Source: Mesodorylaimus sp. YZB2_4
Lineage: Eukaryota; Nematoda; Enoplea; Dorylaimida; Dorylaimidae
Assembly (NCBI GenBank): GCA_030248295.1
Contig: JASANH010000246.1
Location: forward strand, 35,848 to 99,847
DNA: 64,000 nt
Direction of reading: 5' to 3'
This document shows, in pieces, positions 4,247-41,539 of this stretch (positions are counted from its first letter, which is position 1; every line of letters begins with the position of its first letter). The notes below the pieces were generated by a model that was not told the origin of the DNA, did no database searches, and saw nothing but the letters and a program-made list of their open reading frames with translations. The position numbers were made by a program, and so were the translations under genes.

Positions 4247-4249
4247 ACT

Positions 4250-9815: not shown

Positions 9816-10275
9816 TGCCTTTTGTGGAATGTTGGATCAAAGGTCTGATGATGATAGAGGAAAAATCATAAGAACATTCAGGATTTCAAAGTTTCTTGGA
9901 GCCCCTGATAAGTTGATAAAAGGCTGATAAGACGCAGTGCTGGATACAGGGCCTTATAACTTTGATATCAAACCCTGTCGCTGGCAAGAATGATGAATTC
10001 GCCTGCATTACAGACAGTAGGTACACACACTCCGCCCAAAATCTGGACAAGTCCATCCCTAAAATCGATTTATCGATAAGTAGCGGGCAAATCAGAGGTG
10101 CCATCGCAAAGCTACAACACCCTGACATGCCTCATGTATATGCGGACAACATATATTCACCTGGTTGAGATACCATAATTTCCCAGATTTCAGAGTCATA
10201 TCAAAACTTTCAGAAGGCCGTAACTTAAAACTGCAAAAATAAACCTGTCCAGTTTTCGGGCTCAGCCCTTCAATT

Positions 10276-10830
10276 CCCGATGCTGGTATAACAAAGTGAC
10301 CGACTTGTTTGAGACCATGGAAAAACAAATGAAAAAGCAGCACCCTTGGCTACCCGATTAGCTGCCTGTAAAATTCCAGTTTGACGGAATACTGAACCGA
10401 GTCACAATTTCTCTGACACATCCCGCTGATGATATTCAGTTATCCAAGGCAATGGCCTACATGTTTGGTTATGACGTGGACAGCTTTGAGGACATTTCGG
10501 ATGACCCCGGCCTGGCACCTCACCCACCCGACATGAGAGCTGGTGTTGTCAGTCTTTACGTTTACTCAGACTTGGTCGAGCATACTATTGTGGGTGACAC
10601 AGTGGCACCCCTCTTACGCACAGTGGCAGTGCAAAGCAACTTTGGCGATATCGTGGACAAAGTGTTCCAGGCTCGTCATTATGTGCCTGTTCTGAAAAAG
10701 GACTTTGACACGACAGAAATTGAAATAAAGACGGATCAAAATCGTGTTTAGGACATTCAATTCGGCAAGACTATTGTCAAGCTACACTTCCGTCGCCGCA
10801 GAGCAGGAATTTTTGTATAAATTATGTGGT
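10276..10830 (+). pseudogene. Penton-like / minor capsid protein, 3' part
   Basis: Coding sequence resumes immediately after the right AATT. The open frame at 10452-10751 contains GVVSLYVYSDLVEHTIVGDT followed by VAPLLRTV and HYVPVLKKDFDT. These match the C-terminal half of the Polinton penton-like protein (YVYCDLVE-x-QIVGD-x2-APLLR and (R/H)YVPL-x3-FDTIEIDI). A frame change lies near 10290, a stop at 10749, and the terminal part IVKLHFRRRR is in frame after that stop. The gene was therefore already decaying in addition to the insertion. Confidence 0.83.
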
Positions 10831-10886
10831 TTACTGGTGTTTTATTATTGTTGCTCATTGTTGTCGCAGAAAGCAGCTGGAAATCA

Positions 10887-11347
10887 TGAATTACGACAAT
10901 CCTGACTTTTGGTTGGCTTCTTATCGTCAGCAAGCTGTGCAAAGCGGTCACGGGTTGGATGGATTTCGTGGATCACCGTACCAACGTGGTGCTGGTCTGG
11001 GCAGCTGGTTCAAATCCCTCTTTAGCATGGCTGTACCAGTGCCGAAACAAGCAGCGAAAACTACAGCGAGACGCGTGGGCAAGCAGGCGCTTGCAGCTAT
11101 TGGACAAGTAGCTGCTGATGTATCGAGTGGAAAGGACTTCAAGGAATCATTGCTCAGTCGAGGCAAAGAAGCGGCATTAGATGTTCTGAATAAAACAGCT
11201 GCAAACGGATTCCAAAACAGCAGTGGATTAGGTGTTAGACAACTCAGAATAACTATTAGATTGCCTTTAAAAAGGAAAGCTAAATCAAGAAAGAACAGTG
11301 CAGTGAAAAGGCGTCGCCTAGTGAAGTCGGATATCTTCAGTCAATAA
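10887..11347 (+). CDS. Core-like / membrane-lytic type protein of Polinton 1
   Basis: The frame begins around MNYDNPDFWLASYRQQ and contains FRGSPYQRGAGLGSWFKSLF. An alanine- and lysine-rich helix follows, then the segment GKDFKESLLSRGKEAA and a very basic C-terminus. The PYQRG-x-GLGS-x-F-x2-LF-x-MA-x-P motif is standard in the Polinton protein encoded just before the major capsid gene and resembles adenovirus minor core or lytic proteins. It is about 153 residues and open to its stop at 11345. Confidence 0.75.
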
Positions 11348-11353
11348 AACAGA

Positions 11354-12684
11354 ATGAAGCGTTTTATCGATTCCCATTCTATAGCAAGCACCAGGAGTGA
11401 ATTGGATTTATTTTCTATTCTGGCAACTCAGGTGGCTATTTAACGTTCATTTTGTGATGTTATCCACACGAGCAATCCAGTCACCAATGAGGGACCTTTT
11501 GAATTTCGTTTTCCCGCTGATTCGAATTTTGTGCATTTGTGTAAGCGCTATGTTTATTTCCAGCTGCGAATTGTCAGAGCTGACGGTGCTGCTGTTGGGG
11601 CGAATGATCCGAGGGTGGCACTCATAAACGTTATTGGTAAAACATTTTCAAACAGGCCAAACTTTATTTGAACTCCAAGCTGATTTACGACAGCGGCGAT
11701 ATTTATCACTTGCGCGCCTACTTGGAAACTGAATTGAATTATGGTTCTGACGCGAAATCATCCTTTCTAAGCTCTGCTTTGTACGCGAAAGAAGCTGGTG
11801 CCAATGCTATTGTGAATTCTGAAAATAACCCTGGTTTTGACGAAAGGGCTAATCGGTTCGCAAACAGTCAGTGGGTCGAAGCTATGGCCCCACTGCACGT
11901 GGACCTCATGAATCAGGACCGCCTGCTATTGCCTCACACGGACGTCCGAATTGAGCTGCACAGAAACATTGACTCATTGCTCTTGATGTGCTTTCAAGCT
12001 AACTCTCCCGCCTATAAACTGGAAGTACGAGAAATGAAGATGATTGTTCAAAAAGTGGAGGTGTTGGAAAGCGTGCATCTAGCTTTAAAATCCACTTTTT
12101 CTCAATACACTGCCAAGTACCCATTGCGACGAGCCGTTGTCACCAGCTTACACGTTACTCAGCAAAGGCGTGTCACACCTACTAACAGCATTCTTCAAGG
12201 CCAGATACCCCGCCGAATGATCATTTGCTGCTGCGATCAGGATGCTTATCATGGCACTATTAATAAAAGTCCATTTGTGTTTCAACCATAAGCCATTCAG
12301 TCGATAAAAGTTACAGCTGGCGGACAGACATTTCCTGCTCATCCATTCCGCTGAATTTTGGATTGGATTGGATTTTAACAATCATCATTTTCTGCAAGCA
12401 TACACTTCACTGTTTCAAGCATTGGGCATAGCTTATGACAATCGTGGAAATGGCATAACACGCGGGGACTTTGAAACTTCGCACTGCTTTTTTGCATTCG
12501 ATTTATCCTCTGACTCGGATGACAGTGGACACTGGGATACCATAAAAAAGGCACCACCTCAGTCGAGATTCAGTTTGGTCAGAACTTGCCTGCTGGCGGT
12601 GTTCAAGTTATAGTGTATGCCGAGTTTGATAATTTATTGTCAATCGACCGAAATCGCGTGGCCCATTTTGATTACACGGCTTGA
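11354..12684 (+). pseudogene. Polinton major capsid protein (double jelly-roll), frameshifted
   Basis: The N-terminal block starts at 11354 with MKRFIDSHS and SELDLFSIL. The next block, EGPFEFRFPADSNFVHL, is in another frame. The best conserved part is the open frame 11668-12291, with DSGDIYHLRAYLETELNYG, TAKYPLRRAVVTSLHV and PRRMIICCCDQDAYHG. The C-terminal block, NLPAGGVQVIVYAEFDNLL, ends at 12684. At least three frame changes occur (near 11430, 11650 and 12560), so no full product is possible. The protein builds the capsid shell in Mavericks and adintoviruses. Confidence 0.88.
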
Positions 12685-12686
12685 AC

Positions 12687-13130
12687 ATGGATACTGTGGA
12701 GCTGACATACATTCTGGGCAAGGACCCTTTCACGAAACTGAACTTTGTCGGCGTTTTCCCTGCTGATCACCTGAAGTCTCCCACTGTAAAGACACGCCCC
12801 GCCTGTTTGGTCGTCAATTCTGACCCTAGTTGGAAACCGGGCGCACATTGGCTGGCAATTTTTATTACGCACAACGGCCAATTGGAATTTTCCGATTCTT
12901 ATGGACAGTATCCACGCAATTACCCAAATGGTATACGAATTTTTGAAGCAACAGGATGAATTTTGCAAACTGAACAACAGTCAATGGCAAGGCCCATCGT
13001 TAAGCACTTGCGGACAATTTTGCTTGTATTTCTTGTTGTGGAGATGTTGAGGCGTCAGTTTTGAGAAAATCATGCATAAGTTCAGTAATAACCAAGAAAC
13101 AAATGATTTTCTGGTTACCTTTTGTAAATG
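12687..13130 (+). pseudogene. Adenain-type cysteine protease of Polinton 1, broken
   Basis: The frame 12687-12959 contains CLVVNSDPSWKPGAHWLAIF followed by EFSDSYGQYP. The DPSWKPG-x-HWL and EF-x-DSYG motifs supply the His and acidic residues of adenovirus-type maturation proteases. The Cys block (LSTCGQFCLYFLLWRC) is read in a different frame near 13010, and an in-frame TGA follows it. Two lesions therefore separate the catalytic residues from each other and from the tail. Such proteases trim capsid and core proteins during maturation. The gene starts 3 bases after the capsid gene stop. Confidence 0.85.
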
Positions 13131-13510
13131 GATTGTTTGATAAGAGTACTTGTGTGCATGATGTCGATTATGTTGTCAACCAGTGCTGCAAGGCTAGACT
13201 TTGTTTGCATGGTCATCAACCCTAATAAACATGAATAACTTGTACATTCATCCTGTGAATAAAGTGTACCTAGTACACATTTCATATGATCGAATTTAAG
13301 AACGAAAGCACAGGCACGAAATTGCGGGATCACATTATGCAAAGTCGTGCTGAGCAAAACTAAAATCAAATCAAGGAAGCTCCAAAAATTTAATCGAGCG
13401 AATGCATGCCATAAAACAAACGTAGAAATAAAGCGATGAAAATAAGGCGCATTTCGAGCCAAAAATCAGAGTACAAGGCGAACAAAGCCGAAAAAAGAAG
13501 CTTATTTAAT
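13131..13510. other. Gap between Polinton 1 and the F-box gene
   Basis: The right edge of the Polinton should fall here. I could not identify a terminal repeat or target duplication. The sequence is AT-rich with no convincing gene. Confidence 0.4.
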
Positions 13511-13514
13511 AAGC

Positions 13515-14504
13515 TTACTCGTTTTCTTCTTCACCCCCACCATCGGCTACGGCATCCTCAATCGCCATGATAAAATACTCATCCGCATCGAGCGGTTTAT
13601 TGAAGTCGTCGTCGTTGTCCAACTCGGACTCGCTTAAATCATCCTCAGCTTCCAACACGACCACAAGACCGTGGTGAAATTTCACCATCATGCAGATGTT
13701 AGCAGGATGGTGATGGAGTTGAAATTCCATGTTCGATAGGTCAGGGTAGACACTGCCGAACGTATTGATTTTGAGAACTAGTCCCCGGCCAGCTTGTTGG
13801 GCGTTGCTTTGGGTGATCAACTGGCCCGTGATACCATAGCAGTTGATCAGTTGCAGAATTCGAATGTTCGGATTGTCGGCGATAAAGCTGGCGATAGCGA
13901 CGTTGCCGAGCATGGTACAGCTGAGGGTAACATCCGTAATCGTTGATGGTAAAAAATGAACCAGACCAGAGGCAGTTCGATTGAGGACGAGTGTCGAGCA
14001 CTGCGAAAAGTGTTGAAGCAGTGGCATAACGTCAAAATTAGTCAGTAGTTGACCACCAATGGCGAGTCTTGTGGTGCTCGGATTGGTTCGGGTCAGAAGG
14101 ACTTCTTGAATGGCAGGCGGCGGCTCATTGTGGATGGCAATACCTTTAGTCGACATCCTCGCCAACAACTGTCGAAGAGCGTGACTGGCTACCTCCGCTG
14201 CCGCCGGCCTATAGTTGAAAACGATACAGGTGATGGGTATCGGTTGATTCCAAAAATTAATAGCCTGGATTCGCCCCCCGTCGCTTGTAGATTTCGAATT
14301 CAACTGGAACACCCCCATAGCGCAAACCAGACAAGCTGGAAATGCACAGATTCCACGATTTCAGTTGACCAAATAAGTTGGGGGGGGGGAGCCAATTGCA
14401 AAGCATCGCTGATACGTTCTGACGCACTTTCCAGACGAAGGCGAATTAACAGACAAGTACTGCATAATCAGCAGTATCAATTCGACGGGGAGTTGGTCGA
14501 TCAT
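13515..14504 (-). CDS. F-box protein with C-terminal acidic tail (frame broken once)
   Basis: The putative start is the ATG at 14504, and the first residues (MIDQLPVELILLIMQYLSV) are a clear F-box. A 267-residue open frame (14318-13515) follows. It has hydrophobic repeats resembling irregular leucine-rich repeats (ITDVTLSCTMLGNVAI, NPNIRILQLINCYGI) and ends in an Asp/Glu-rich tail. The F-box frame and the long frame do not join directly. A run of nine G on the + strand at about 14383 lies between them, so a homopolymer error or a frameshift is likely. F-box proteins recruit substrates to SCF ubiquitin ligases. It could be a host gene or cargo of the adjoining element. Confidence 0.62.
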
Positions 14505-15338: not shown

Positions 15339-16905
15339 TCAAATCGATAAAGGAAAAATTTTAGACTTGGGCGCCGAATTAGGCCAACCTGACTGCACAT
15401 ATCGAATGATTCCAGTCAACTGCTTGTTCTTCAGGGTCACCTTACGAACTTGCTGGATAGTAATTAGAAGGTTAGAACTCTTTTTCAAAACCGCAATCAA
15501 CTGTGGAGTGCCGTCCACTGGCAAGCATGGATCAGAAATCGATAGAAGAGGATTTCTTGTCAGAAAATAATCAGCATTCGCGTGATCCTTTCTTGGGCGA
15601 TATTTTAGGTGGAATTCATAAGTCATTAGAATGATAGCCCAACGATGAAATCGGGAAGCTTAAACGGACTCAATGTGTCGCTTTGGTCCTAGCATCACCA
15701 ATAATGGCTTATGGTCAGTTACTAAATCGAACTGACGACCATATAAATAGCGACGAAATTCCTTGACCCAAAAAATTGATGCAAGTGCCTCTCGCCTAAT
15801 CTTTGAATACTTGCAATCCGCTGGCGACAATTTCTTGGATGCGAAGGCGATAGGACGCTGTGAACCGTCAGGCATATAATGAAACAGAACAGCACCGATG
15901 TTAACACTGGACGCATCACAATCCAAACCAGGAGGCATTTTGAAGTCATAGTGAACCAGGACAGAATTTGAAGTAATCGAATAACGCAAAGTCACAAATG
16001 CCTTTTCACTCTTATTGACCCATTCCCAGAGAACGTCCTTCTTTAATTTTTCATGCAAAGCAGCAGAAATAATAGAAAAATTGGGAATGGATTTGCTGTA
16101 GTACGCCATTAAACCAAGAAAGCTGTGCAATCGTCCTGGACTGTCCGGAATCAGCACATTTTTTAAGGCTTCAATCTTATCAGGCAATAAGGGCAATCCA
16201 GTCGAATTAATAAGGTGACCCAAGTATTCCAAAGATCGGACCCTAACAATGCACTTGCTCTTTTTTAAACGAGAACCTTTATCTTGTAATTGAAGTAATA
16301 CCTTACGCAAACGGACATCGTGCTCCTCTCGCGTTGCACCACCGACGAGAATGTCATCGAGATACGAATGTGCACCTTCTAAACCTGAAATCGCGCGTTC
16401 AATGACGTGCTCGAATAAGCCAGGTGCGAAACTGACTCCGAACGGCAGACGATTATATCGAAATAAACCCTTGTGCGTTATGATTACCACTGCCTTCTTT
16501 GCCTCCTCCTCCAGTTCCACTTGAAGGTACGCATCAGCCTAATATAATTTCGAAAATACCTTGCACCCAGCCAAGGAAGCGAACAATTCCTCACTGGTCG
16601 GCAATGGGTACCAATCAGCTGGATAGCACAAGGATAGGTACAAATAGCTGGATTCAAAGTGAGGCGAAAATCAACGCGAATACGGATGGAACCATCTGGT
16701 TTCTGAACTGGGACAATCGGAGCAGCTTAATCAGAACGAAGAGTCGGCTCAATAACACCTATGCGCTGCAGTCTGTCCAAGTTCTCCTCAATTTCAGCTT
16801 TCAAGGCGAATGGGACTGGACGGGGTTTATAGAATCGTGGAACAGCATCAGGGCGAAACTCAATATGGGCGCGGACATCCTTGACGTGGCCCAACTCTGG
16901 CAAGA
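15339..16905 (-). pseudogene. gypsy reverse transcriptase and RNase H
   Basis: The RT N-terminal fingers are at 16905-16727. The main open frame (16520-15660) contains FRYNRLPFGVSFAPGLFEHV, the catalytic SYLDDILVGG and the RNase H start PGLDCDASSVNIGAVL, ending in the DHKPLL block. A nonsense codon sits just before the ADAYLQVEL block at about 16540, and the 15660-15620 junction is also broken. Integrase is absent. Confidence 0.88.
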
Positions 16906-16923
16906 ACAATTAGGAGCCCTCAA

Positions 16924-17226
16924 TTAGCAGAAGATCTTTTTCCAGTCCAACTTGAAAATGGCAAGCAAATCTCGACTGAAAATGTTGCAGCCGTAATTAC
17001 TGACAACGTAAACGTCGACGGGTTTGCACGTCCCTTCGACAGTTAATGGAATACGAGCTGTGCCCAAAACCGAAAGTTGAACGCCACCATCACTACGCAA
17101 CTGCATCGTGGCCGAACTTAATTTTGGTGAGCCAATAAGACGCCATGTGGTCACATTCAAAAGACTCACTTTTGCTCCAGTATCCAACAGCATTTTAATC
17201 GAACGTGAAGAAGTCGAAGCAAACAT
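16924..17226 (-). pseudogene. gypsy retropepsin domain
   Basis: The active-site motif MLLDTGAKVSLLN and the flap/IFSRDLL region of a retroviral-type aspartic protease are visible. It lies between the zinc knuckle and the reverse transcriptase, as expected. Confidence 0.8.
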
Positions 17227-17658
17227 GAAAATTTCATCAGAATCCGATGAAATATTATCAACTGCAGCTATAGTGCCGACATCTGAAATTTGTGAAATGC
17301 CGTTACCACCACTTTAACAGGAAGGAACTTCTCTACAGACTTTGGCTGAGTGGCCTTTTTTCCCACACGATCGGCAAATATCGTTTAAATGCGGGCATTT
17401 GGGAGCCTAGTGCTCCTTAGAGCCACACCCATGACACGTGCCCTTTTGTGGCGTGCCGTAATCAGGCAACAGCGGTCTACCTTTCTGTCCGCTATTCCAT
17501 GTGTGCCCTTTAAAAGAACTGCCGTGACGCGAAATACCAAAATCGGCTTTGCGCTACGCTGAATTTGACGAAGGATGCGAATACGTTTTTTTCTTGCCTT
17601 TCGAGATACCGATCGCAGAAACAGGTGCGCTAGCCGAATTAAAAACTGGCAGGTCCCT

Positions 17659-18081
17659 TTAGACAGCTTCTATTTGCTGTGCCAAAGCTAAAGCATTGGA
17701 CCAAGACAATGTGGGCTGGGTTACCAATTTCTCCTTGATCTTAGAATTTCGCAACCCTGCAATGAACTGGCCGCGCAAAGCCCGGTTTAAGTGCTCCTCG
17801 AAATTGCAGGTCAAGGCCAATCGTTTTAGATCAGACATGGAATCAGCTACAGACTCGGTCTCATTCTGCCTGCGCTGAATAGATTTCTGCGTCTCCGCCA
17901 CCTCTAACGTTTTGGGCTTGAAATGCTCCTGTAAGGCGTGAATAAGCTTTTCCAGCTGTTTTGCGCTAAGGCTATCAGGCGCTAAGAGATTGGTGAGCAA
18001 TTGGAAATGCTCATCGCCGATAGCCGTAATGAGTGCAGGAACAGTGTCGGTACAACTCACACTGCTGACGAAACCGCTCAA
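17659..18081 (-). pseudogene. gypsy gag fragment
   Basis: The 140-residue open frame reads as a retrotransposon gag capsid. It contains QLEKLIHALQEHFKPKTLEV and FEEHLNRALRGQFIAGLRNS, typical of gypsy gag C-terminal domains. It is followed (about 17430-17320) by a CCHC zinc knuckle, CRSCGKKGHSAKVC, which is separated by at least one stop. Confidence 0.75.
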
Positions 18082-18339
18082 AGTAAACTAAAAATTTGCA
18101 GAGAAGGATTGAACAGTGTTAACGTAGGAGGAGCGTGAATCGGATCTTTTTCCAGAGGCATAGCGAGAATGACTGACTGAAAAACCTCTCAACAAGGACT
18201 TTGAAAATGGCAAGTTTGAAGTGGAATTAGCCGAAAGTCACCAAAATGTTATGTCTGAGTGGAATGTAACTATGACTGAGTTCGATGATTAGTAGCCAGA
18301 ATTACTATTGCGCAAACCTCAGACAACATTCGTACAATA

Positions 18340-19278
18340 CTAATACAAACAAGTATAGGAGCATTGTAAGGCGCCAGTCAGTCGGAAAGCACTCTGCTCA
18401 ATCATGGAAAAAACATGATATGAGAAAATTACGTGTAAGCTTGTAATCGGGATCTCAACATGCAGATTCCAGTGTTGGCGCTTACATTCTCGATTTGCTA
18501 AACTATGTAATTGCGCCATGCCATTTCCGTAAAAGGCGTCCTATTGACACTTTGAAGTTTACTGCAATGATGCATGTTGCAAATGTGCCTCAAAGCGTGT
18601 ATAATGATGAAATGCGGGTGAACGAAACCACCAATACAGCTTGGCTAACCTTTGAAAAGTGAAATGTGGCTAGCAGATACAGAATGTATTTCCATCCAGA
18701 TAAGATGTCTCAGCAGTTGATGACTGCAATGTCTCACATGTCATTGCAGTTGTAGTTGCATTTGATGTCTAGTGTGAATATGGGTGAATATTTGGGTATA
18801 TCACCAAACAAGTTCCGATTACTTGCCTGGAATATCAGCATACTTTTGGCGAGTTTTCTCTTCAGGTTTTGCCCTAAGACATCGCCAAATGGTTCCGCAA
18901 ACGAGACTCGAATGGGTCCCCACATGAATCGTTGTGCCGCCATGTCGAAAGGTGGGCGCCACATACTCGTCAACGATCCTTATAACATCTAGCAGCATTG
19001 GTGCTAGATGGAGGTGAGCAGTGTCCTGGAAGGTGTCCAAGAATTCGTTATCAGATGAGAGTCCATTTCCTTTCTTATGCTATGCATAGAAGCAAAGCTG
19101 AAGTGAGAGAAATAATAAAATCGAAGCGAAGCCGGGAAAAGCAAAAAAATCAAATTCAAAAAAATACTTTCGTTGAAACAAATGCCATAGTCACCAAGGC
19201 CACTACAATTATTTACAATTTTACTTCGAATTTTATAAAAGCAGGAGCTCACTTCTCCCATCCTCACGATATATACGT
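18340..19278. other. Interval between gypsy element and polymerase gene
   Basis: Overlapping minus-strand frames at 18734-19040 look partly protein-like but match nothing I recognise. No RNA gene was seen. Confidence 0.35.
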
Positions 19279-20415
19279 TTAAAAGGAGCAGCGAGTGAGC
19301 CCTACCTTTTCCTTAATCGCAGTTACCACACCTACATTTGGTAAAAAAGGTTTCGTTACATTATGTACATTCGTAAAAGCTAGTGGATCAGCAGCCAATA
19401 CTTTTTTATAATTTCCGAATGTTAAAGCTGCTGCATTGACTGTGGTTAGCTGAACTCCCTTTGTCTATGGATGTTCCTCGCCTGGACTAGACATAGCACT
19501 GAAACAGGTAATAGTTAGTTTGGGGGAGTTTGTACAGCACAGTACAGCAATCACTTACCTTGGGATTCAGACCAGCAAAGTTGGATCCTTGCTTTTTCAA
19601 CTTAAAGCGACCAGGCTCGCGTTCGTGTAATGGATTTGTCTTGTCCACAAGCCATTTGACCTTCAGGCGTTGCCATTCGTCTCGTTTTCCAGGCAGCACA
19701 ATGTCATCGAGGAAAGGTGCTGCAATTGCCATTCGAAACTGAAAAAATTTCAAGTAAACAATGATGTCTACGCAATACAACATTACAATTACCGAGTCTG
19801 TATCACCTTCTGACAATGTCCATCGTTTTCGGTTTGAATATGGAATGAGTACAGTGTACATAAAGTCCAGCATTGTCTTTTCAGCGTTACCATATATGGA
19901 CAAATCTGAAATTAAAACCTAAATTATTCTTGAAATTTAGTTGGCATAAAACTTACCAATTACAGTTGGTAGCTAGAAGATATGCTTCTCCGGTTTTCTA
20001 TGGAGTTTGAAACTGTTGTTGGAGATGGCTACTTTACATACATGGAATGGGTCATTGGCCGCCTTCATTGCCTTTTTCTTATCAGCCTAGATAATAAATC
20101 GCCTAGAGCGGTACCTTCACCAATCGTTATGTTTCGGGTCTGGACAACTGTCCTCTTTTTGCAAAGAAACTTGAACCTGATTACCAGGCAGACGCATGAA
20201 CCAGAGCTGAGCATCATTGCTGCTATTAAGAGCATCGTGATGATGCTAAAAATATCTTAAACGTTGGCTTATAGATCGGAACTTGTGAGTTGGTTTTACC
20301 TTTTTTCATTTCCTGATTCGTGGCTACTATATGGTTTCTGGTTGTAGCTATGGTCTTCCGATTTGTCCTTATGGGATCCAGCGTTAATGTCATCGAATTC
20401 TTCATCCGCGTTCCT
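19279..20415 (-). CDS. Family B DNA polymerase, C-terminal exons (multi-intron)
   Basis: Splice signals and phases agree for exons 19905-19793, 19738-19559 and 19464-19279. A 16-nt microexon (19972-19957) and an exon ending near 20023 precede them. The 19905-19793 exon ends in the polymerase motif C (GDTDS). The next exon has the conserved REPGRFKLKKQG block seen in Polinton-type and related polymerases. The stop is at 19279. Introns are 54-94 nt. Further coding-like exons continue upstream to about 20415, including an acidic stretch, but their joins are unclear. The exonuclease and palm motif A were not found. It replicates element DNA if complete. Confidence 0.65.
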
Positions 20416-20639
20416 AAACAGGTGAGCGATCATTTGTCTCAATTTCTAGTGTGCGGAAATTAACTCTCACCTACATGTTTTTTTTTCGCTGTATGCGTAG
20501 GGATGTACGATTTTCTCAAAGAATCTATGTAAAACCCTTTTTTGAAAAAAAGTTTTTAGTCTTTCTGGTCTTACCTTTCCCACAATTTTATAAAATATGT
20601 CACATTACAGCATAATTGCGGACCCTTTTCATTGGTCAT

Positions 20640-20825
20640 CAGGGGCGGTGGTAAGCTCGGAGGCTTTGGAGAGAAAAATGTCGATATTTGATGTGGTGTG
20701 GGTTACGATCGTGAGGTTAGAGGCTCTGGAAAGAAAAATGTCGATGTCTGAGGTGGTGTGGGAGACGTTCGTGAGCTTAGAGGCTTTGGAGAGAAAAATG
20801 TCGATGTCTGAGGTGGTGTGAGAGA
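20640..20825 (-). repeat. 60-bp tandem repeats encoding a Pro/Ser/Thr stalk
   Basis: Three 60-bp units are present. On the minus strand they encode repeats of the type TPPQTSTFFSPKPLSSRTS. They lie within exon 3 of gene A. The pattern is typical of extended, possibly O-glycosylated stalks. Confidence 0.75.
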
Positions 20826-21357
20826 CGACGGTGAGGATTCGGGTGTTGGCAATTTTAAGGCTGTGGCGTGTGTAGGAGGGATTTTGGCTGGCTCTGATGT
20901 TGAGGACTCTTTTGTCGCAGGCATAGGCACGGTAGAAAATATTACTGCCCTGGAAGTTCAGATCGAAAGTTTTCCTATTTAGTATTGTCGCGACGGAGCG
21001 CGATGAATTCAACGCTCACATTACAGCCCAAGAGGAGCATCGTCGATCCGTGACTTTCGATTTGACTCTTTTCCTCTTTTATGCCTAGTTCGCTCTCCTG
21101 TGGCTCATTCTTCGTTCTGTCTCCAACCAGAGTGGTCGCCTGCTTATCTTTGTCTGTAAAAGACAGTGTAACGAAGCTGTGATATATTAAGTCTCTCTCC
21201 TCTAGCCGACCTGAGCAGTCGGTCCTCTCGTCGCTCTCTTCAACTACGCTTCCACAACGCTCCTCTCGCTACAAGTGGTAGCATCGAACGTGGTTTCCAT
21301 CTACGATCTTCGCCCCGCCCTTCGTCGACTGGTACGTCCGGAAGGCGGCGGTGCAGT

Positions 21358-22554
21358 GTGAAGATGGCGTCAAAGTCTTGGCAACTACTCAGTCCCATTC
21401 GCGAACGCCTCAGAAAGGCGCTACGATCCGTTCAAATCGACAAGGACGCACCAGCGGAATGTCCACTCGACAAGATCTCAGATGCCAAATCAGAAATCGA
21501 ACTGGCCAAATCGAAACTTCAGAAATTGTTCGTCGTTTACGAAACTCGGTACAACGCGTTCGTCGATGCGTCCGAAGATAAACGAGTCAAAGGCTTCCAG
21601 GAAGAAATCGCCCAATTCGACGAACCGTCCTCCCAGTACTACGATTTTGACGCCGAATTCGCGAACGTCCTAAAGATCCTCGACAGTCGAGTCGAAATGG
21701 AAAAACGTCGCGTCGAGATGGAAGAACGTCGCGTCGAAATGGGAGAACGTCGCGAAGATCGGGATCGGCGCTTGGCTGCTGAAGAAGAAGAAACGCGACG
21801 TCGCCGCGAACTTCACAAAATTCAGATGGAAAACGAACGGCGACGTCTGGCTATTCCTGAAGCTCCCGCCGCGCCTCCAGTGGTCCAAAGGGGAGACAAG
21901 GTACAATTGCCTTCTTTTGAGCCCCCTATGTTTGACGGGACCCCCTCCAAGTACCAGGAGTTCATGGACGCCTTTAAGGCTTGTGTGCATAGTCAGAAGG
22001 ATCTCTCGGATGTCTTAAAACTTCACTATCTGAAGTCCCGCCTGGAAGAGGGAAGTCCGGCCGCTAGGGCTATCGAAGGCTTATCCGCGACGAGTGAGAA
22101 CTACGCCGTCGCTTTGAAAACGATTGAAGATCGTTTTGGGAAGAAAGATCTCATAGTCACGAAACATCTGCAGAATATTCACGCACTCAAGGCACCTAAG
22201 AACGAGGCACGCGCGCTGCGTAATTTCTTTGACGAGTTGAATGCAAGCTATAATTCGCTCAATGCTCTTGGCGTTTCCATTCAAAACGATCCTAGCCTCG
22301 CAATCATGCTCAAAGACCTGCTCCCATCGAGTCTCGCAATGAAGTTGTTCAAGGAAAACGGAAAGAAGCCGTTCACCGTCGAGTCCCTGATCGTCCTACT
22401 CAAAGATCATATTGAAACCTCAGAATACATGGAACATAGCTCTCGTAATGTTGCGTCGCCCCCCAAAGTTGAAAGGTCTGAACGCGTAAGGAACCAGTCC
22501 CTGCTCGGAAGCCAGCTAGCCATCAGAGTCATGGTCGCGTCTTCACAACCATGA
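21358..22554 (+). CDS. BEL/Pao gag
   Basis: The 398-residue open frame starts shortly after the primer-binding site. It has an N-terminal coiled-coil-like Glu/Arg repeat region (residues about 115-165). The capsid domain (DUF1759 type) includes LPSFEPPMFDGTPSKYQEF and LHYLKSRLEEGSPAARAIEG. The frame ends soon after and the zinc-knuckle part continues in a different frame, so one shift separates them. The protein assembles virus-like particles for reverse transcription. Confidence 0.9.
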   Translation: MKMASKSWQLLSPIRERLRKALRSVQIDKDAPAECPLDKISDAKSEIELAKSKLQKLFVVYETRYNAFVDASEDKRVKGFQEEIAQFDEPSSQYYDFDAEFANVLKILDSRVEMEKRRVEMEERRVEMGERREDRDRRLAAEEEETRRRRELHKIQMENERRRLAIPEAPAAPPVVQRGDKVQLPSFEPPMFDGTPSKYQEFMDAFKACVHSQKDLSDVLKLHYLKSRLEEGSPAARAIEGLSATSENYAVALKTIEDRFGKKDLIVTKHLQNIHALKAPKNEARALRNFFDELNASYNSLNALGVSIQNDPSLAIMLKDLLPSSLAMKLFKENGKKPFTVESLIVLLKDHIETSEYMEHSSRNVASPPKVERSERVRNQSLLGSQLAIRVMVASSQP

Positions 22555-22622
22555 ACCTCGCTTCAAGTAACCCCGCTACGAATAGCCACCGTGGCTCTTG
22601 ATCCTCTCAAACGAAACCGCCG

Positions 22623-23657
22623 ATGTGCCAGCTCTGCAACGGTAGCCACTGGCCCAGCCAAAGCCCCAAGTATCCTACGCCCAACGATCGCAAGAAACAA
22701 TGTTCAGAAAAGAAACTCTGCTTTAACTGTCTCTCTAGCAGTCATCGCATCAGTGATTGTAAAAGTACTAAGAACTGCCCATCTTGCCATGGAAGGCATC
22801 ATCGTTCGCTCTGCGGTTCTTCCTCGTCCTCTGCTACATCTCACTTCACGACCGGCCCCTCATCTGGGCAATCAACATCCTGCATAGCTCCAAGTCCTCT
22901 CCGCTCCTCTTTCATGCTGTCCGCCAAGATCACCGCTAGTTCTGGTCCATCAAAGCCGTTCTTTGATGGCCACGCTGTACTTGATTCTGCAAGTCAACGA
23001 TCCTACGTTTCTTCAGAATTCGCTAGGCAAATTGGTGCTCCTGTTATTCAAACAGAGCAGATTCGCGTCTCTTCTTTCGGTGGCATCATGAATTCCTTTA
23101 GTTCCCGCTTGGTAGCTTTCTCCATTCGCACTCGCGATGGCTTCGATCTCAGCATCAAAGCTTATGTCATTCCGAAGATAACCGGCCCAACGGTTCGCCC
23201 GTTGGCAACCCTATCTCCAGAAGCTGAGACATTCCTGCAGTCCTACGATCTAGCTGATACTATTCCGTATGCTTCGGAGTCCCGTATTGTCGACATTCTA
23301 ATTGACGCAGAATACTGGGATCAAATCTTCGCTGACTCCAGTGTCTCAGTGCCGGGAAGCACTCCGCTATCTCTCATTCCTCCTCGTCTGGGGTGGATCC
23401 TTACTGGGAAAGGAGAATCACCAACTCCATCTGCTACGAATGAATCTGCAAACATCATCTCGCATACGACACTTCTTCTCACGAACACTCATTCTGGAAT
23501 CGATTCGCCTTGTCTGAACTCTTTCGACTCGCTTGCCATAAACATAGCCGATCCCTTGACAAATTTGAAGCCTGAACAAATCGGAATTCGTGATTGTTCA
23601 TCTGATGCTAACGATGAACCCGCCTCCTGGTCAAGACGAAACTCGACTCGGAAATGA
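22623..23657 (+). CDS. BEL/Pao zinc knuckles and aspartic protease (DUF1758)
   Basis: The open frame begins MCQLCNGSHW and has two or three Cys/His knuckles (CFNCLSSSHRISDC, CPSCHGRHHRSLC). The protease domain has the AVLDSASQRSYVS active-site region, in which the usual DSGS/DTGS is DSAS. The segment LIPPRLGWILTGK follows. After about 23660 the expected reverse transcriptase does not appear. Confidence 0.88.
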   Translation: MCQLCNGSHWPSQSPKYPTPNDRKKQCSEKKLCFNCLSSSHRISDCKSTKNCPSCHGRHHRSLCGSSSSSATSHFTTGPSSGQSTSCIAPSPLRSSFMLSAKITASSGPSKPFFDGHAVLDSASQRSYVSSEFARQIGAPVIQTEQIRVSSFGGIMNSFSSRLVAFSIRTRDGFDLSIKAYVIPKITGPTVRPLATLSPEAETFLQSYDLADTIPYASESRIVDILIDAEYWDQIFADSSVSVPGSTPLSLIPPRLGWILTGKGESPTPSATNESANIISHTTLLLTNTHSGIDSPCLNSFDSLAINIADPLTNLKPEQIGIRDCSSDANDEPASWSRRNSTRK

Positions 23658-25081
23658 ACTTGAAGTGCATCGTGTCCTATCCCACGATTTGTGCATCGAG
23701 CATTATCCCGTCGTCCCTAATGAAGAAACTTCGTTGGCCGCATCGCAAATCTCAGATCAAGTCCTTCTGTACTCCGCATCTTGGAGAAATCGTTCCGAAA
23801 TCGCCCTCTCGAATGCGCAGCCTCGCATGCACATCAGTCAGATGTATAGAGCATACAAATACGTCTGAGATCTATCTATGTCTTATCTAAAGGTCGTTCG
23901 TCGAGTTTATCTAAATACGTATCTGAAGTTTGATCGGAAAGTTTGGTTTTCGCATGAATGACTCTTCTGTAGTATCTAAACGCTCCCTTTTCTCTTTTTG
24001 GTAGACTAATCCCACTATAATATACAATACCTTTCTGATAGAACCCCCTCGTGAGCAAATCCCTTCAGGAATCCATGAACTCTGGTCCCAACTTCTCCCT
24101 TCCCTGGGCGTCTCTCGCCCGCCGGAGTGTCGCGACGGAGCGCGATGGATTCAACGCTCACATCACAGCCCAGGAGAAGCATCGTCGATCCGTGACTTTA
24201 CGATTTGACTCTTTTCCTCTTTTATGCCTAGTTCGCTCTCCTGTGGCTCATTCTTCATTCTGTCTCCGACCAGAGTGGTCGCCTGCTTATCTTTGTCCGT
24301 AAAAGACAGTGTAACGAAGCTGTGATATATTCAGTCTCTCTCCTCTAGCCGACCTCAGCAGTCAGTCCTCTCGTCGCTCTCTTCAACTACGCTTCCACAA
24401 CGCTCCTCTCGCTACAAGTATTTAGGTTTTCCCATTGTATAGGTACGTTTTACTTACTTGTCCAGACCGCAGTCGCAGTAACAGTATGGGCGGCATGTAA
24501 CTATCGGTGCTTTACAGAAGCATTGGCATCCTCCGGCCGACGTTTCCACTTTTTTATTCGCGGCATGATCTCGCGAATGTCACCATTACAGTGAATATTA
24601 CTGACGGCGTGCGTGATCAATTTTTTCGCCTTTTTCGCGCACTCGACCAGCTTGATAGAAGAAATTACCAGTCGCGGGCAATCGCAGGTGACGGCGGTTT
24701 TATCAGCGGAGCAATAGCACTAAAGGAATGGGGATAATAAGACGAGCTGGTACGTCAGGATCTTCCTATGTTACCTGCCCATTTGCAGCGACCGCCAGGT
24801 ACGTAATGATCAAGCTAATGATCAAGTGATCTTGAATACGGATCTGAATCAGCAGAAATCCTTGACGGCGCGGGCGCATGATAACTACCATCACGACGAT
24901 AATGCAGGCGGCAACGCCGATTCCGGCTTAATTCTGCTTGAAAATTTCTATCCCAAATTCTACGATTTGTTGGCAGCGCGTGAAAAGTTCATAATTACTC
25001 GATTTATGGGCCCGAGCTTGTCCCGCGAGCATATTGGCGAAATAATTCAGCCAATAGGCGAAAGTAGGCAGAGTCATTTTT

Positions 25082-25670
25082 AGATCTTACGTCTTAGATA
25101 CTATATCGGTTTCTCACCCTCTTTCCTGTCTGATCAGGCGTGTTAAAATGCGGGGTTTCGGGAAAGTTCTCTATTCAGCTGAGTCATCTCCACTGATTTG
25201 AATGCTGATCCATTTCAGCTAGCGGACGGTTTCAGATTTTTATATTTGATAATGAAAAAGGCTGGTCTCGACGCGAAAATATTTTGCCTTTGGTCTTTCG
25301 GCCTGTACTGTACGCAGGGAGACCCGGCATGGGAGGGACTGTTCGGTGCTTTAGAGTGTGACGGGAGGGAGTTAGCTAGCCTGCCAGAATGTAATGTCTG
25401 GTGTGATCGCTGGGTGGTTAACCTCGGCAACACGAAGCGAATAATTATGCTTGGCCGGTTCAGAAGTGCTTACTGTGCTGGTCATTTAGGTATCCCATCA
25501 TAGAACAGAGCTTGTCCTTGCTTTCTGACTGGGCTCTGATGATTTAATTTTGGGACTCTAGCCTCCTCTCTTAGACCATTTCGCATGTATGAACTGATTT
25601 AGCGAATCTTCAGATAAGCTATTTTTTCAATTGGTTGTGAGTTAGCCATCAAGAGAGAGAGCCGTAAAAG
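25082..25670. other. Intergenic between divergent genes A and B
   Basis: Genes A (minus, starts 24879) and B (plus, starts 25866) diverge from here. Overlapping frames at 25198-25503 were not recognised as coding. Confidence 0.4.
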
Positions 25671-25671
25671 T

Positions 25672-25773
25672 GTTTTTATCAAAGACGGTTGTGATTCAGC
25701 GTCGCGTTTTTATCAAAGACGATTGTGATTCAGCGTCGCGTTTTTATAAAAGACGGTTGTGATTCATCAGATA
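25672..25773 (+). promoter_or_regulatory. Three 34-bp direct repeats with a TATA-like element upstream of gene B
   Basis: Units start at 25672, 25706 and 25740 and read close to GTTTTTATCAAAGACGGTTG. The third copy differs so that it contains TTTTTATAAAAG, a good TATA box. It lies about 120 bases before the gene B start codon. The position suggests a repeated promoter or enhancer motif for gene B (inference). Confidence 0.6.
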
Positions 25774-25865
25774 GTAGCGCGTTGCTGGTGATTAACTTAT
25801 CAGGGCTCTTTAAAACCCCATCGTCAGTCTTTCCGATTCTCAATCGTCTATTCTACCTCGGCATC

Positions 25866-27015
25866 ATGACGTTCTTTATGGTCCTCCTTTTTCTTCTCAG
25901 CCTGGTCTCTTCTATGCATGCCGCGTGCTTTTGCGATGACGATCTCACAGTCAGATGCTCATCTTTCGACGAAGCATCTACTATCCGTCTGCTGGACTGC
26001 GCCAACTTGAGTGTGAGGATTAACATCGTCGGCTCACATTTCGACTGTAATATGCCCATTAAGCTGGTCATGCTGAATGTATACATCGCCACCATGTCTG
26101 ACACGGCCTATTGCCCCTGTTTTTGCGCTCTGGACAATATCGAGTGCACAGGCAGTCTGTGTGAGTGTGACGATTGCGGATGCGTCTGTCGACAAAGCAG
26201 CAGCACGGCGTAAAACCCCTGCTGTAGGAGAACTCTCGCGCAGGGGCTTAACTCGCTCTCTCCTTTTAGTGCTCCCAATAAGACAACGAGCTCATCTACC
26301 GTGACGACAACGAGGACGAGAACAAGCATTTCTTCTTCGGTTTCAACGAGCACTGATCCTTCGACGAAGCCGGGGTATTCGAAAGTACTGCTCACTCGCG
26401 TGCGATTTTTATGGTCAAAACTCCAAATTAATAGTTGACGAGCGCATCTATTTTCAGTAACTTGGCCGTGGCAGTATCAGTTGCGGTCGCCATCGTTGTT
26501 TCCTTGGCGCTCATCACCGGGCTCGTGTTTTGCCGTATTCGGCATCGGCGATATGAGCTGGAACAACAACGACGAGAGAACGATTTTATGTAAGCGCACA
26601 CCCCAAACCGCATTATAACTCAGTCAGGCCAGAGTTCTGTTTCCTATCCCGTCCTTAAATTCTCAGCCGCCGCCGTATTGGCTCTCCACTCAAATCAGCA
26701 CCAATTTTTGAAGTCCAAAACGATGATCCAGCGCCGGTGTATCAGGATACAACAGAGCCAATATATTCTGAGCCAGATTTTGGCAGTTTTGAAAGCGTTT
26801 ATGAGACACCCGCACATCATAGGTACCTGTCCTATACTCTGGAAAGAAAACAGACGCCCGCATTTGACCAATTTCTTTTCAGAGAAATGAACGAGGTTTT
26901 GGCCAGACGTGAACGAGCCGGCAACGATTACGACGGTCCTAGCACATCGAACAGTTCGCCGGCGCCTATCGAAACACGATCGAGAAACGAGGCGAAATGT
27001 AGCAGGTTAGCCTAA
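25866..27015 (+). CDS. Type I membrane protein B: cysteine-rich ectodomain, Ser/Thr stalk, TM, tyrosine-motif tail
   Basis: The exons are 25866-26209, 26270-26374, 26458-26589 and 26667-27015; phases agree and give 309 residues. Order: signal peptide (FFMVLLFLLSLVSSMHA), about 95 residues with many cysteines (CPCFCALDNIECTG, CECDDCGCVC), a Thr/Ser stalk, one membrane segment (VAVSVAVAIVVSLALITGLV), a basic stop-transfer (RIRHRRYELEQQRR) and a tail of about 130 residues. The tail has repeated tyrosine motifs (PVYQDT, PIYSEPD, SVYETP, RYLSYTL) like SH2 or endocytic adaptor sites. It has the same ectodomain plan as gene A. A viral surface glycoprotein or a captured receptor are both possible. 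Confidence 0.75.
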
Positions 27016-27071
27016 CGCTTGCTTTATCCTTATTTGACGCTGTGCCGTAGTCCAGAGCGATGATTAGTAGT

Positions 27072-27077
27072 TTTATT
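27072..27077 (-). terminator. Polyadenylation signal AATAAA overlapping the stop of the 27073-27444 gene
   Basis: AATAAA is read on the minus strand; its TAA is the stop codon of the gene. This is a sign of extreme compaction and could end a transcript covering the whole minus-strand gene set. Confidence 0.5.
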
Positions 27078-27444
27078 GCTTCTGCACGTACATACGTACA
27101 TGATCGGTCAGTGGGGACTCGATAGCGTTCAATAAAGGCGTAAGCAAATTGACTGGTCTAGCCGTATCAGGAACTAGGAGCCACGTTAGCCAGGAGGCGA
27201 ACAAGGTGTCGGTTGATCGCCACTCGTTCTCGTCAGCATCCGATTTCAAGCTAACAAATCCGTCTTCATCAATTTTAAATAAGTTTCCTTCGAAGGGCGC
27301 CAGCTCTAGTAGAAAGCTGACTGCACTCTGCTTCAGTTCGGGCGAGTTGAAAATCGAAGCAAAATTCAGCAGCAGTCCAGATTCAGCCGTAGGAATGAGA
27401 CTGTACTTTACGATTTGTCTAGTCGGCGTCGCCTTCTTCCTCAT
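27073..27444 (-). CDS. Unknown 123-residue protein of element 2
   Basis: The frame starts with an ATG that overlaps the end of the ATPase frame by about 26 bases and is open to its stop at 27073. It begins with a basic patch and has hydrophobic segments (LLLNFASIFN, ASWLTWLLV) but no clear membrane span. Not recognised. Its stop codon overlaps an AATAAA signal. It converges on gene B, whose stop is 57 bases away. Confidence 0.6.
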   Translation of the reverse strand: MRKKATPTRQIVKYSLIPTAESGLLLNFASIFNSPELKQSAVSFLLELAPFEGNLFKIDEDGFVSLKSDADENEWRSTDTLFASWLTWLLVPDTARPVNLLTPLLNAIESPLTDHVRMYVQKQ

Positions 27445-28099
27445 TGTCCTCCACTACGTAGGCTACGATGGCTTTATCGTCTTGGTGGGGGCTAAATTGG
27501 CGTACTCTGAGGTACGGAGGGCACTCTTGCCTGGCGTCGATAATGAAATAGGAATGGGGCGGTGCTCGGGCTGTGATCTCCGACAATAGGGGCGGGTACT
27601 CAGGGAACCAAATTCGACTGAGCCAGCGTATGCCCACGGCTAAAGGGAGGCTAGGAAATAGAAATACGTAAGACGAGTTTTGTACGGCGTGTCTGAAGGC
27701 CACGGACTTGAAGTTGGTGGACTGAGCGCATACTACAATGTCGCACCTGTGCGACGATAGGTTGCAAGCCAGCTGCGTCAGGATCGACCGGTTTGTGTCC
27801 AGTTTATCGAACATGTCATCTAGCCATAGCAGACCCGGTTCTCGCGCCCATTCGGGGCTGGAACAGAAGTCGATTATGGATTTCTCGTCGTAGGGGCTTA
27901 TCGTGAATAGGATATTATTGGCCTTGCAGAATTTTCTTATATCTTCGTAAATTTCTTGATTTTCGTGAGCCACAATCAGGCTAATCCTCGTGTATCGTTT
28001 CGTGAATGCGTTATGAGAACAGCGAAGTTGTGCAATGGCGTGGCTTTTCCCAGTTCTCGCCACTCCTACAAGGTGATTTCTAGTTTGGGATTATTCCAC
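27419..28099 (-). CDS. Packaging ATPase of element 2 (FtsK/A32-like)
   Basis: The open frame has an intact Walker A (VGVARTGKSHAIAQL), a Walker B-like GLLWLDDMFDKL, and the block CNLSSHRCDIVVCAQSTNF corresponding to the GSHHRN-x-SVIF-x2-QN sensor region of Polinton ATPases. YVFLFPS follows in the place of the usual IVLFKNP. No ATG lies in the frame upstream of Walker A before an in-frame TAA, so the N-terminus is probably supplied by splicing; an AG acceptor (CAAACTAG) sits just upstream. The C-terminus is acidic and overlaps the next gene. It pumps genome DNA into capsids. A relative is found at 42.9 kb. Confidence 0.82.
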
Positions 28100-28472
28100 T
28101 TGCTCAGAAGGCACGTGGCGGCAGTTACCTATGCAGGTGCAAAAAAAGTTTGGCCCTAGGAGTAGATCAGTCGCGTTCACCACCTCGCCAGCATGCATCC
28201 TTGACGGCCCTAGGGAGAAAATACCAAAGACTTTATGAAAGCAGGTTTTACTAGGAGGCAAAAGAGCTCGCAGGTTTTTAAAATTGTTCAAAAGTATTAG
28301 TAGGAGCGACCATCAGCGAGGCCGGCTTGCCGGGCGCTACAGTTAGAATCTTATTAATTTGCGGGATGACTAGCATTATCGTGGCCTCGGGCAGCGGCCG
28401 ACTGAATGAGACGTTGACTGTGGGGACCGACCCAGCCGGCGTGGCCGAGAGAACATTTTCGCATTCGGCCAT
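28091..28472 (-). CDS. Small proteins between capsid and ATPase of element 2
   Basis: An ATG at 28472, 4 bases after the capsid stop, opens a 64-residue frame (to 28278) rich in hydrophobic beta-like stretches (VNVSFSRPLPEATIMLVIPQ). A second, overlapping frame (about 28291-28091) runs toward the ATPase and ends near a GTAAC donor-like site. They could be one frameshifted or spliced minor capsid gene or the spliced N-terminus of the ATPase. The identity is not established. Confidence 0.4.
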
Positions 28473-28476
28473 ATGA

Positions 28477-29708
28477 TTAGGGGGACGTGTCCAGGGCCAG
28501 AATATAGAAGCAGCCTAGCGTGTTGGGAAATTTCTTCGACGTCCCTCCTCTGCAAATTCTACTTCCGCCCGTCGTGGTCTCGTCGAATCCCAAACCCCTG
28601 TACAGCCAATAGAGGTACATGCTGTCGAATTCCGAGTTGGGGTCCAGACGTAGGTTCCATTCCGTGCTATTGATACGGACATTGTACTCTTGCACGGCGC
28701 AAGATTTAAAATTGTGCATGGAGCGAGCCCAGTCGCCTGTATAATTCACTTTCAGAAGAAAGGCCACCAGGAAGCGTCGAGGGTAGGCGCTGGGATTGTA
28801 TTGGGGCGTCGAGGCCTCGCGGATTCCTTGTCTGAAGTTGAGCATAAACAATGCGGGTTCCAAAAAGTGAAAGCACGACTCGTCGCCCTGATTAAAAAAG
28901 GTCAGCTGACGCTGCAAAAATTGGTCCCTGCACTCGAAACTTAGAGCGTGCAATTCGAGGTGAGTAATTTGTATCATCAGCTCTTTAGTCGGCGGGTTTA
29001 TTTGGATGATCTGCTTAGGGGCGTAAGTGTACAGATCGAATTGTAGTTTTGTTAGGAAGGGAAAGTAGGTTTTGGCCGCCAACGGATGAAGTCTCAACTT
29101 GTCGTACAAGTCGACGACCGTGCTCCCCTCGTAAAAGGAGCACCTGTCCTTTTTGGCCTGATCCTCGAAACTGTCTGGGTCGCCTGATTCTAGGTACCAG
29201 AGCGCCGTATCGTTACCCCTGAGATGCGCCTCGGTCGATAGGAATGCGGCGGTTGTGATATAATTTAAAAGACCGAAATTGATGGACGTATAGCATTCGC
29301 GATCATTGATCGACATAATGACCTTATTGAACATGCTATTGACGGGATTCGAGCAAAGGCAGGCGGTGTCGTCGGGACTGAGATTCGATCCGTCAGTGTT
29401 TGTGATTTTTAGTCGCACGCTCAAAAACACCTCGTTCGATGGGTGGCAATTGTTGCTGGTGGTATAGACGAAGCTGAGTTTTGTATCGGCCTAAAGGGCA
29501 TGGGGGGATCTCCTACTGTCTAAGTAGTCCATCAAGAGGCATAGGAACTTACGGCGTTTATTGAGAAGGGGGGATTCCGATTCGAGTTTCCACGTATCAG
29601 GCGAGTTTCGCGGACGGCCGTGTCTGGACGGCTGTGGACGAGGGGTAGGGTACCGCCTTTGAACGGGCTCAGAAAACATCTGGCGAGCTTCGTTGGGGGT
29701 TCGGCCAT
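28477..29708 (-). CDS. Probable major capsid protein of element 2, spliced near the N-terminus
   Basis: Exon 1 is 29708-29553 (ATG 8 bases after the core gene frame ends) and exon 2 is 29490-28477. The 62-nt intron has GTAAGT and TTTAG ends and keeps phase, giving about 389 residues with no stop. Exon 2 begins with the pattern VRLKITNTDGSNLSPDD, then NSMFNKVIMSINDRE and a Tyr-containing LLNYI segment. This matches the order in Polinton major capsid proteins (V-x-I-x3-DGT-x-L, then LHS-F-x-V-x-LN, then Y-x-Y-x-YLE), though diverged. Position between core and ATPase genes supports the call. A different beta-rich virion protein is the alternative. Confidence 0.65.
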
Positions 29709-29713
29709 ATAGT

Positions 29714-30043
29714 TTAATGTTTTCTCGATGAGGCGGCCTTCTTTTTACTAGCCCTGGCTTTTTTCTCATTAGCCGGTTTTCTTCCAGCCCTCCTCACTGC
29801 CTGCTTCGGCGGTGCTGACTTGTTCTTCTGACTCTTCTTCTTTCTACGCCTAACAACGTTCTTCGGAATGGGGAGAGGAACAAGGCCGACTTCTTGCTTC
29901 TGGTTCGCCGTTGCTTCTGACGTCTGGGTCGCGGCGATTGTAGGTGCGCTTTTGATGGAGGGGACTGGTCCAATTAGAATAGGGGTGATGCGGCGAGGTG
30001 TGCGCGATGAAACAATCGGGTATTCAGTTGACGCCGAGGACAT
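29714..30043 (-). CDS. Basic core-like protein of element 2
   Basis: The frame begins MSSASTEYPIVSSRTPRRIT and is open for about 109 residues. The N-terminal two thirds is Pro/Ala/Thr-rich. The C-terminus is very basic (NVVRRRKKKSQKNKS, then KKARASKKKAASSRKH), like viral histone- or protamine-like core proteins. The stop TAA is followed after 5 bases by the capsid gene ATG. Confidence 0.6.
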   Translation of the reverse strand: MSSASTEYPIVSSRTPRRITPILIGPVPSIKSAPTIAATQTSEATANQKQEVGLVPLPIPKNVVRRRKKKSQKNKSAPPKQAVRRAGRKPANEKKARASKKKAASSRKH

Positions 30044-30046
30044 CAA

Positions 30047-30285
30047 AAAATACCAAGCACACAGTCAAAGATGCGCAATTCACTGGCCGGCCGCTGGTTC
30101 TGATAATATCCAAGACAATATTCTGATGAATGCCTGGCCAGGTAGAATACGAAGTTACGAGCGGATGAGTCCTGGGCGATATCTGCCTGTCCGGAGCACT
30201 GACCACTGGCGCAGAAACCGTGACACACCCGATAATTGGGGCAAAGCCGGCACAAGTTGCCTCCCCAATTCACAGGACGCCCCCC
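30047..30285 (-). other. Possible cysteine-rich coding segment upstream of element 2
   Basis: A minus-strand frame contains NLCRLCPNYRVCHGFCASGQ, with closely spaced cysteines. Its N-terminal side runs into the poly-C block, so it cannot be followed. It may be part of a zinc-binding protein of element 2. Confidence 0.3.
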
Positions 30286-30297
30286 CCCCTTTTGCCC

Positions 30298-30331
<34 letters not shown>

Positions 30332-30555
30332 CCCCCATCTCTCCCCCCCATTCCCCCCTCCGCCCCCCTCCCCCCCACTTCCCCCCCCCCCCCCCCCCCC
30401 CCCCCTCAAACCAAAAACACCCCCCCCCCCCCTTTCCCAATTTCCCCCCCCCCCCCCCCCCCCCCCCCCAGGAAAAAACACAAAAAACAAAATTTTCTGC
30501 CCCCCCCCCCCCCTCTTTCCCCTCCCCAATATTTTCCTCTCCCCCCCCTTATCAT
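30281..30555 (+). repeat. Poly-C / low-complexity block
   Basis: Long runs of C are broken by a few other bases. On the other strand these are G-runs that can form G-quadruplexes. Such a block is as likely a sequencing or assembly artefact as real DNA. Apparent proline- or glycine-rich frames here are not genes. Confidence 0.8.
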
Positions 30556-41350: not shown

Positions 41351-41412
41351 ATTAACTTTTTTTAATTGACCAATTAATTAGCCCCCGCTAAGACAATGGC
41401 CGGCAAGACGGC

Positions 41413-41535
41413 GTGGGGGGGGGGGGGGCTAGCTTAATGACGTCACGCGAGCCCGCGCGCGGCCGGCCAATCAGAGCGAGGGGCGTGGCTTAGCGGTCAC
41501 GTGACTCCGTCCATCAGCCAATCAGATGTAATAGA
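41413..41535 (+). promoter_or_regulatory. GC-rich promoter-like module, copy 1
   Basis: After a G-run come, in order, a perfect CRE (TGACGTCA, 41438-41445), a CCAAT box (41467), a GC box GGGGCGTGGC (about 41480), a palindromic E-box TCACGTGA (41497-41504) and a second CCAAT box (41518). The whole module recurs inverted at 59361-59485. It may be the terminal region of a larger element or a mobile promoter-bearing repeat. Confidence 0.6.
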
Positions 41536-41539
41536 GGGC

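Follow-up and report, generated by a model that had tools for sequence, protein, structure and literature searches.

The stretch analysed here (the window, 64,000 nucleotides, corresponding to positions 35848–99847 of contig C311) carries an ordinary dead Polinton (Maverick) of clade S1 (window 1–4477 and 10271–13797, with integrase (PF00665), capsid and protease regions) and, beside it, a second and divergent set of genes of double-stranded DNA virus type. Genome searches were run against the 145-Mb genome from which the window comes (1067 contigs, written here as C-numbers). We interpret the second set as very probably what remains of a provirus, truncated and decayed, that belongs to a divergent Polinton lineage, termed lineage A; the genome also contains a more distant sister, lineage B. 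The direct evidence lies in the gene set and its linkage, capsid homology together with a modelled fold, low ratios of nonsynonymous to synonymous substitution (dN/dS) between copies, and the large number of copies. The features, in window coordinates, are:

28477–29708, minus: major capsid gene, predicted double jelly roll (exon 29708–29553, intron 29552–29491, exon 29490–28477); frame ends early relative to relatives
28281–28466, minus: 3′ capsid codons in another frame (tblastn matches of the C849 and C325 capsid C-termini)
27419–28198, minus: packaging ATPase gene (exon 28198–28129, intron 28128–28066, exon 28065–27419); Walker A and B motifs identified by eye; frame without visible breaks
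27073–27444, minus: conserved gene of ~125 amino acids downstream of the ATPase (85% to C436, 84% to C749, 49% to C325)
29717–30064, minus: basic, Lys/Arg-rich core-protein open reading frame (116 amino acids); matches C849:7143–7493 (37.5%, E 7e-7)
30027–30248, minus: C-terminal part of a ~150-amino-acid gene, candidate penton by position (tblastn C849:6719–7180, 41%; C325:23797–24243, 49%); copy cut here
25866–27012, plus: surface gene 1, with a hydrophobic, signal-like start, a Cys-rich part, a membrane-like stretch (~26460–26540) and repeated Tyr motifs in the tail; exons placed from conservation blocks
24504–24719, minus: surface gene 2, Cys-rich part, paralogue of gene 1 (35.7% to C325:29979–30143, E 2.7e-7)
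20574–20702, minus: possible tail of surface gene 2 beyond the BEL element, tentative (20-residue match to C849:14525–14584, 55%, E 4.6e-6, low-complexity filter off)
20986–24416, plus: BEL/Pao retrotransposon, non-viral, inserted in the element (long terminal repeats 20986–21276 and 24128–24416; 5-bp target duplication; DUF1759 gag, E 2.8e-24)
16679–20092, no strand assigned: chimeric gypsy/PolB repeat outside the element, with a polymerase piece at 19918–19282 (minus); 92–96% nucleotide identity to C490 and C817

The capsid frame stops at 28477, and homologous codons continue in a different frame to 28281. Its intron is common to C436 and is absent from C849 and from the open frame of C325. 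Searching the genome with the capsid exon gives 47 matches, four of which span the whole query without stops; at an identity of at least 50% the exon is present on 23 contigs. As a single sequence it gave no match in Pfam, PHROGs or the PDB sequences, none of the 636 and 90 candidates drawn from a set of 5.8 billion proteins matched the capsid and ATPase exons at E ≤ 10, and PDB searches with profiles returned best matches of E 0.38 or worse. Scans of IMG/VR with capsid, ATPase and integrase likewise yielded no relative, an absence that tells nothing because ordinary Polinton capsids found none in the same scan. The relationship to Polinton capsids emerges from profile comparison with shuffle controls, plus a modelled fold whose alignment assumes homology (from the 120 listed out of 337 capsid relatives in the database, 32 went into one analysis, 14 into the tree and 83 into a further analysis). 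An earlier note on this DNA had proposed structure prediction of the 29708–28477 product as a check; in the model obtained the product folds as a double jelly roll, and that note's view of a second, divergent viral gene set beside the dead Polinton is upheld.

A capsid tree of 24 rows, whose rooting is arbitrary and whose bootstrap values had not settled, places lineage A (100/99) and A together with B (100/100) apart from 14 database capsids and from four clades of this genome, S1–S4. The A+B branch measures 3.85 changes per column, and the S3/S4 branch, at 3.8, is equally deep. Searching the genome with the window capsid recovered no S1–S4 copy at E ≤ 1e-3.

The ATPase gene has 67 matches in the genome; its intron also occurs in C436 and C849 but not in C325. 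Its profile matches the ATPase frame of the dead Polinton (probability 95.9, E 6.1e-9, 124 columns), a frame that in turn matches Pox_A32 weakly (E 0.0067); by this profile match, lineage A carries an FtsK/A32-type packaging ATPase, a Polinton feature. Run directly, the exons gave a stray sub-threshold match alone in Pfam (GSCFA, E 0.043) and nothing in PHROGs. Between the window and C436, a Nei–Gojobori script returned dN/dS values of 0.093 over 337 capsid codons and 0.122 over 221 ATPase codons, and the ATPase value between C436 and C749 is 0.114; dS is saturated for the window or C436 against C849 or C325. Such values point to divergence mostly under selection, the pattern expected if a working lineage had inserted separately each time. 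Elsewhere in the window, at 42939–43142, lies a fragment of a further packaging-ATPase lineage (~35–38% to lineage A), with similar pieces in C544, C301, C353 and C874.

The two surface genes are paralogous, gene 1 matching the second surface gene of C325 (25.5%, E 3.8e-6), and gene 2 is split by the BEL element; on the tentative evidence of the 20-residue match at 20702–20574, gene 2 may formerly have extended across the insertion site. The earlier description of the block is confirmed in part. The Cys-rich surface pair is present, on the plus (gene 1) and minus (gene 2) strands, and the compact block is confirmed in its minus-strand core frame, capsid, ATPase and ~125-amino-acid gene. Its intact look applies to the ATPase and the ~125-amino-acid gene, but not to the copy as a whole, in which the capsid frame is broken, surface gene 2 is interrupted and the element is cut at ~30250.

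The same arrangement recurs across the genome. Nine contigs carry capsid and ATPase both at 50% identity or more; on eight of these (C311, C436, C849, C325, C575, C557, C301 and C996) the two share a strand, with the ATPase ~0.4 kb or less downstream of the capsid, and the ninth, C622, is rearranged. The pair is repeated at five more distant loci with gaps of 0.4–0.65 kb (C544, C470, C284, C325 at 52–54 kb, and the intermediate C433), and the linkage exceeds chance. In C849, C325 and largely C436, the order runs from PolB (on the opposite strand) through an acidic gene, a conserved gene, the integrase and the ~150-amino-acid gene to the basic gene, capsid, ATPase, another ~150-amino-acid gene and the paired Cys-rich, membrane-type surface genes, so that the candidate penton gene sits between integrase and core gene. 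Of the 23 capsid contigs, 12 have integrase matches, ten on the capsid's strand and two (C711 and C407) on the opposite one, and seven have a lineage A PolB piece (C325, C493, C607, C849, C436, C711 and C575). The integrase is of the RVE type (PF00665). The PolB is predicted to be protein-primed: PF03175 is matched above the cut-off in lineage B, and the lineage A frames match the lineage B PolB. One PolB piece is 99–100% identical in four places (C325, C493, C607 and C714). Against C325, C607 and C493 reach 99.9% (2 mismatches) and 99.6% over 1756 bases, with 97–99% and 98–91% in the next stretches, and both matches lie at contig ends; these near-identical pieces would be either recent insertions or uncollapsed haplotypes. 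A dUTPase gene stands near lineage A elements at C849:18080–18568 (PF00692, E 3e-36) and C325:34907–35338, and also in C996, C925 and C466 with other lineage A pieces, and may be an element gene. Separately, a dUTPase-like domain occurs in open frames of more than 1000 amino acids ~1.8 kb from the contig start in C128, C174, C192, C538, C78 and others, so that its distance from the contig end is almost constant across many contigs.

In the window copy, homology with C557, C301 and C681 stops at 30248, 30253 and 30250, and all three carry integrase further on; this is where the window copy is truncated. A search with those frames of lineages A and B that reach at least 60 amino acids, a length above that of shorter PolB exons (the reverse test used the polymerase piece), found no lineage A integrase or PolB in the window, the integrase frame matching region 2822–3013 of the dead Polinton alone (35%). 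The reported lack of an integrase thus describes this copy and not its relatives. A long C-rich run occupies 30280–30472, directly past the cut point.

Several observations weigh against assigning the block to a divergent Polinton lineage. Pfam support within lineage A is weak (integrase E 2.3e-5, below the cut-off; PolB E 0.005–0.011). The fold model needs an alignment that already presupposes homology, Foldseek TM-scores (a measure of structural similarity) are low at 0.25–0.41, and single-sequence folding of the capsid failed (pLDDT, the predictor's own confidence score, 32). The candidate penton is so called by position only and has no sequence match to the penton candidate of the dead Polinton. 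The stretches fetched from C325, C849, C436, C470 and C544, which may stop short of the ends, showed no terminal repeats, and the ATPase dN/dS of the window against C749 is higher, at 0.221 over 170 codons. Finally, the PF00770 search detected no protease at lineage A or B, in agreement with the earlier note: its nine genome matches all lie beside S1 (seven) and S2 (two) capsids, with none at S3/S4 either. Because the search was likewise empty at these two further Polinton-like clades, a diverged protease is possible in A and B. Krupovic et al. 2014 (PMC4028283) report a protease for 74% and an ATPase for 83% of Polintons.

The proposal that the block could be a Polinton-like virus (PLV) truly lacking RVE integrase and protein-primed PolB fits the window copy, which has neither integrase nor a polymerase of its own. 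However, the frequency of integrase and PolB on the capsid contigs, together with the abrupt end of the window copy where three relatives run on towards integrase, makes this very improbable. Domestication, in which the host would have kept capsid and ATPase for its own use, would explain an ATPase uninterrupted but for its intron, the low dN/dS and the introns themselves. Yet low dN/dS between copies is also expected from separate insertions of a living virus, the copies are many and decaying, with few complete capsid matches and a broken capsid in the window, and both genes are linked to integrase and PolB; we consider domestication very unlikely. A decayed member of an ordinary Polinton clade of this genome, with no separate lineage involved, would account for the shared gene kinds and the related capsid profiles, and the equally long S3/S4 branch makes A+B one of two deep branches rather than the sole one. 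The tree nevertheless sets A and A+B apart from S1–S4 and the database capsids, and the window-capsid search reached no S1–S4 copy, so that this explanation, too, is highly improbable.

A preprint (PMC11071308) describes Polintons as having PolB, an ATPase, an RVE integrase, an Ulp1 protease and two capsid proteins, and PLVs as mostly without PolB and RVE integrase. Relatives of the window copy carry four of those six Polinton features (capsid, ATPase, integrase and PolB), and lineage A is therefore better seen as a divergent Polinton than as a PLV. With Polintons they share a protein-primed PolB, an RVE integrase, a packaging ATPase and a double jelly-roll capsid, whereas lineage A differs in a capsid invisible to single-sequence search, in its own Cys-rich surface pair, and in that no protease or terminal repeats were found. 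Polintons have terminal inverted repeats and a target duplication. PLVs resemble lineage A in double jelly-roll capsid and packaging ATPase, but lineage A has integrase and PolB, linked to the capsid in relatives, which PLVs mostly lack according to that preprint. Jeong et al. 2023 reportedly describe Polintons of nematodes with a second group whose PolB is distinct but which is otherwise close to the major family, a composition that would differ from lineage A; the host of lineage A, too, is probably a nematode, judging by its TTAGGC repeats. Adintoviruses are animal-genome elements with related gene kinds, in which an adenain-type protease is typical; none was detected in A or B. A literature search turned up no description of lineage A, with key nematode-Polinton and adintovirus papers outside its reach, so novelty in print is unestablished.

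Because the relatives carry RVE integrase and protein-primed PolB, we retain the divergent lineage but not the integrase-less gene combination of the earlier note's new Polinton-like lineage. We envision that in a complete lineage A element the capsid would form the shell, the ATPase would package the DNA and the surface proteins would contact the host cell for entry. The PolB would copy the linear genome, presumably in the nucleus, given that some copies of the capsid and ATPase genes contain introns, and the integrase would insert it into germ-line DNA. The window copy has lost its integrase/PolB side at ~30250 and has been hit by the BEL insertion; for both reasons it cannot act alone. More tentatively, and with some doubt on our part, A and B may form a separate family-level Polinton branch of nematode-type hosts that lost the adenovirus-type protease, has paired, paralogous Cys-rich membrane proteins at its surface, gained or lost introns in its capsid and ATPase genes while functional, and was recently active. 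A single animal genome seems to contain several deep lineages of Polinton capsids, and some of them escape single-sequence and Pfam searches; the diversity of animal Polintons is therefore probably underestimated. With this lineage it can also be tested whether a Polinton is able to dispense with a maturation protease, and what role the paired surface proteins play.

The polymerase that the earlier note had counted in the block falls outside it. The piece at 19918–19282 sits in a repeat shared with C490 (18130–20092) and C817 (16679–17775 and 19129–20092), both ending at 20092. None of its 52 genome matches (C490, C817 and C357 at 88–89%) lies inside a lineage A or B PolB stretch, and lineage A and B frames of at least 60 amino acids gave no match to it at E ≤ 1e-4. 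We therefore rejected it as part of the element. Its assignment to the dead Polinton is unproven: C357 holds a dead-Polinton capsid piece and the polymerase piece 9 kb apart, and C126, C268, C682, C785 and C1059, which have near-identical capsids, are absent from the 52 matches.

The region is crowded with transposons, including the BEL/Pao element with its terminal repeats, gypsy-like pieces and a DDE_Tnp_4 transposase (5913–6659). The latter is borne on a 5.8-kb insertion (4478–10270) in the dead Polinton, whose C126 copy is uninterrupted at that site. Immediately upstream of the dead Polinton's ATPase frame lies a Bcl-2-like frame (734–1165; PF00452, E 9.8e-8, above the cut-off). As to the host, four tandem units of TTAGGC, which we take to be the nematode telomere repeat, occur 972 and 921 times in the genome (overlapping matches counted) against 0 and 1 for the reversed control, and a genome search with the SL1 pattern gave no match. 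Further along the window are an inverted repeat pair (41399–41585 and 59312–59499; 84–85% complementary, 17.7 kb apart), with a related piece in C681, and a G-rich minisatellite at 54030–54209 whose ~60-bp unit is built of shorter repeats.
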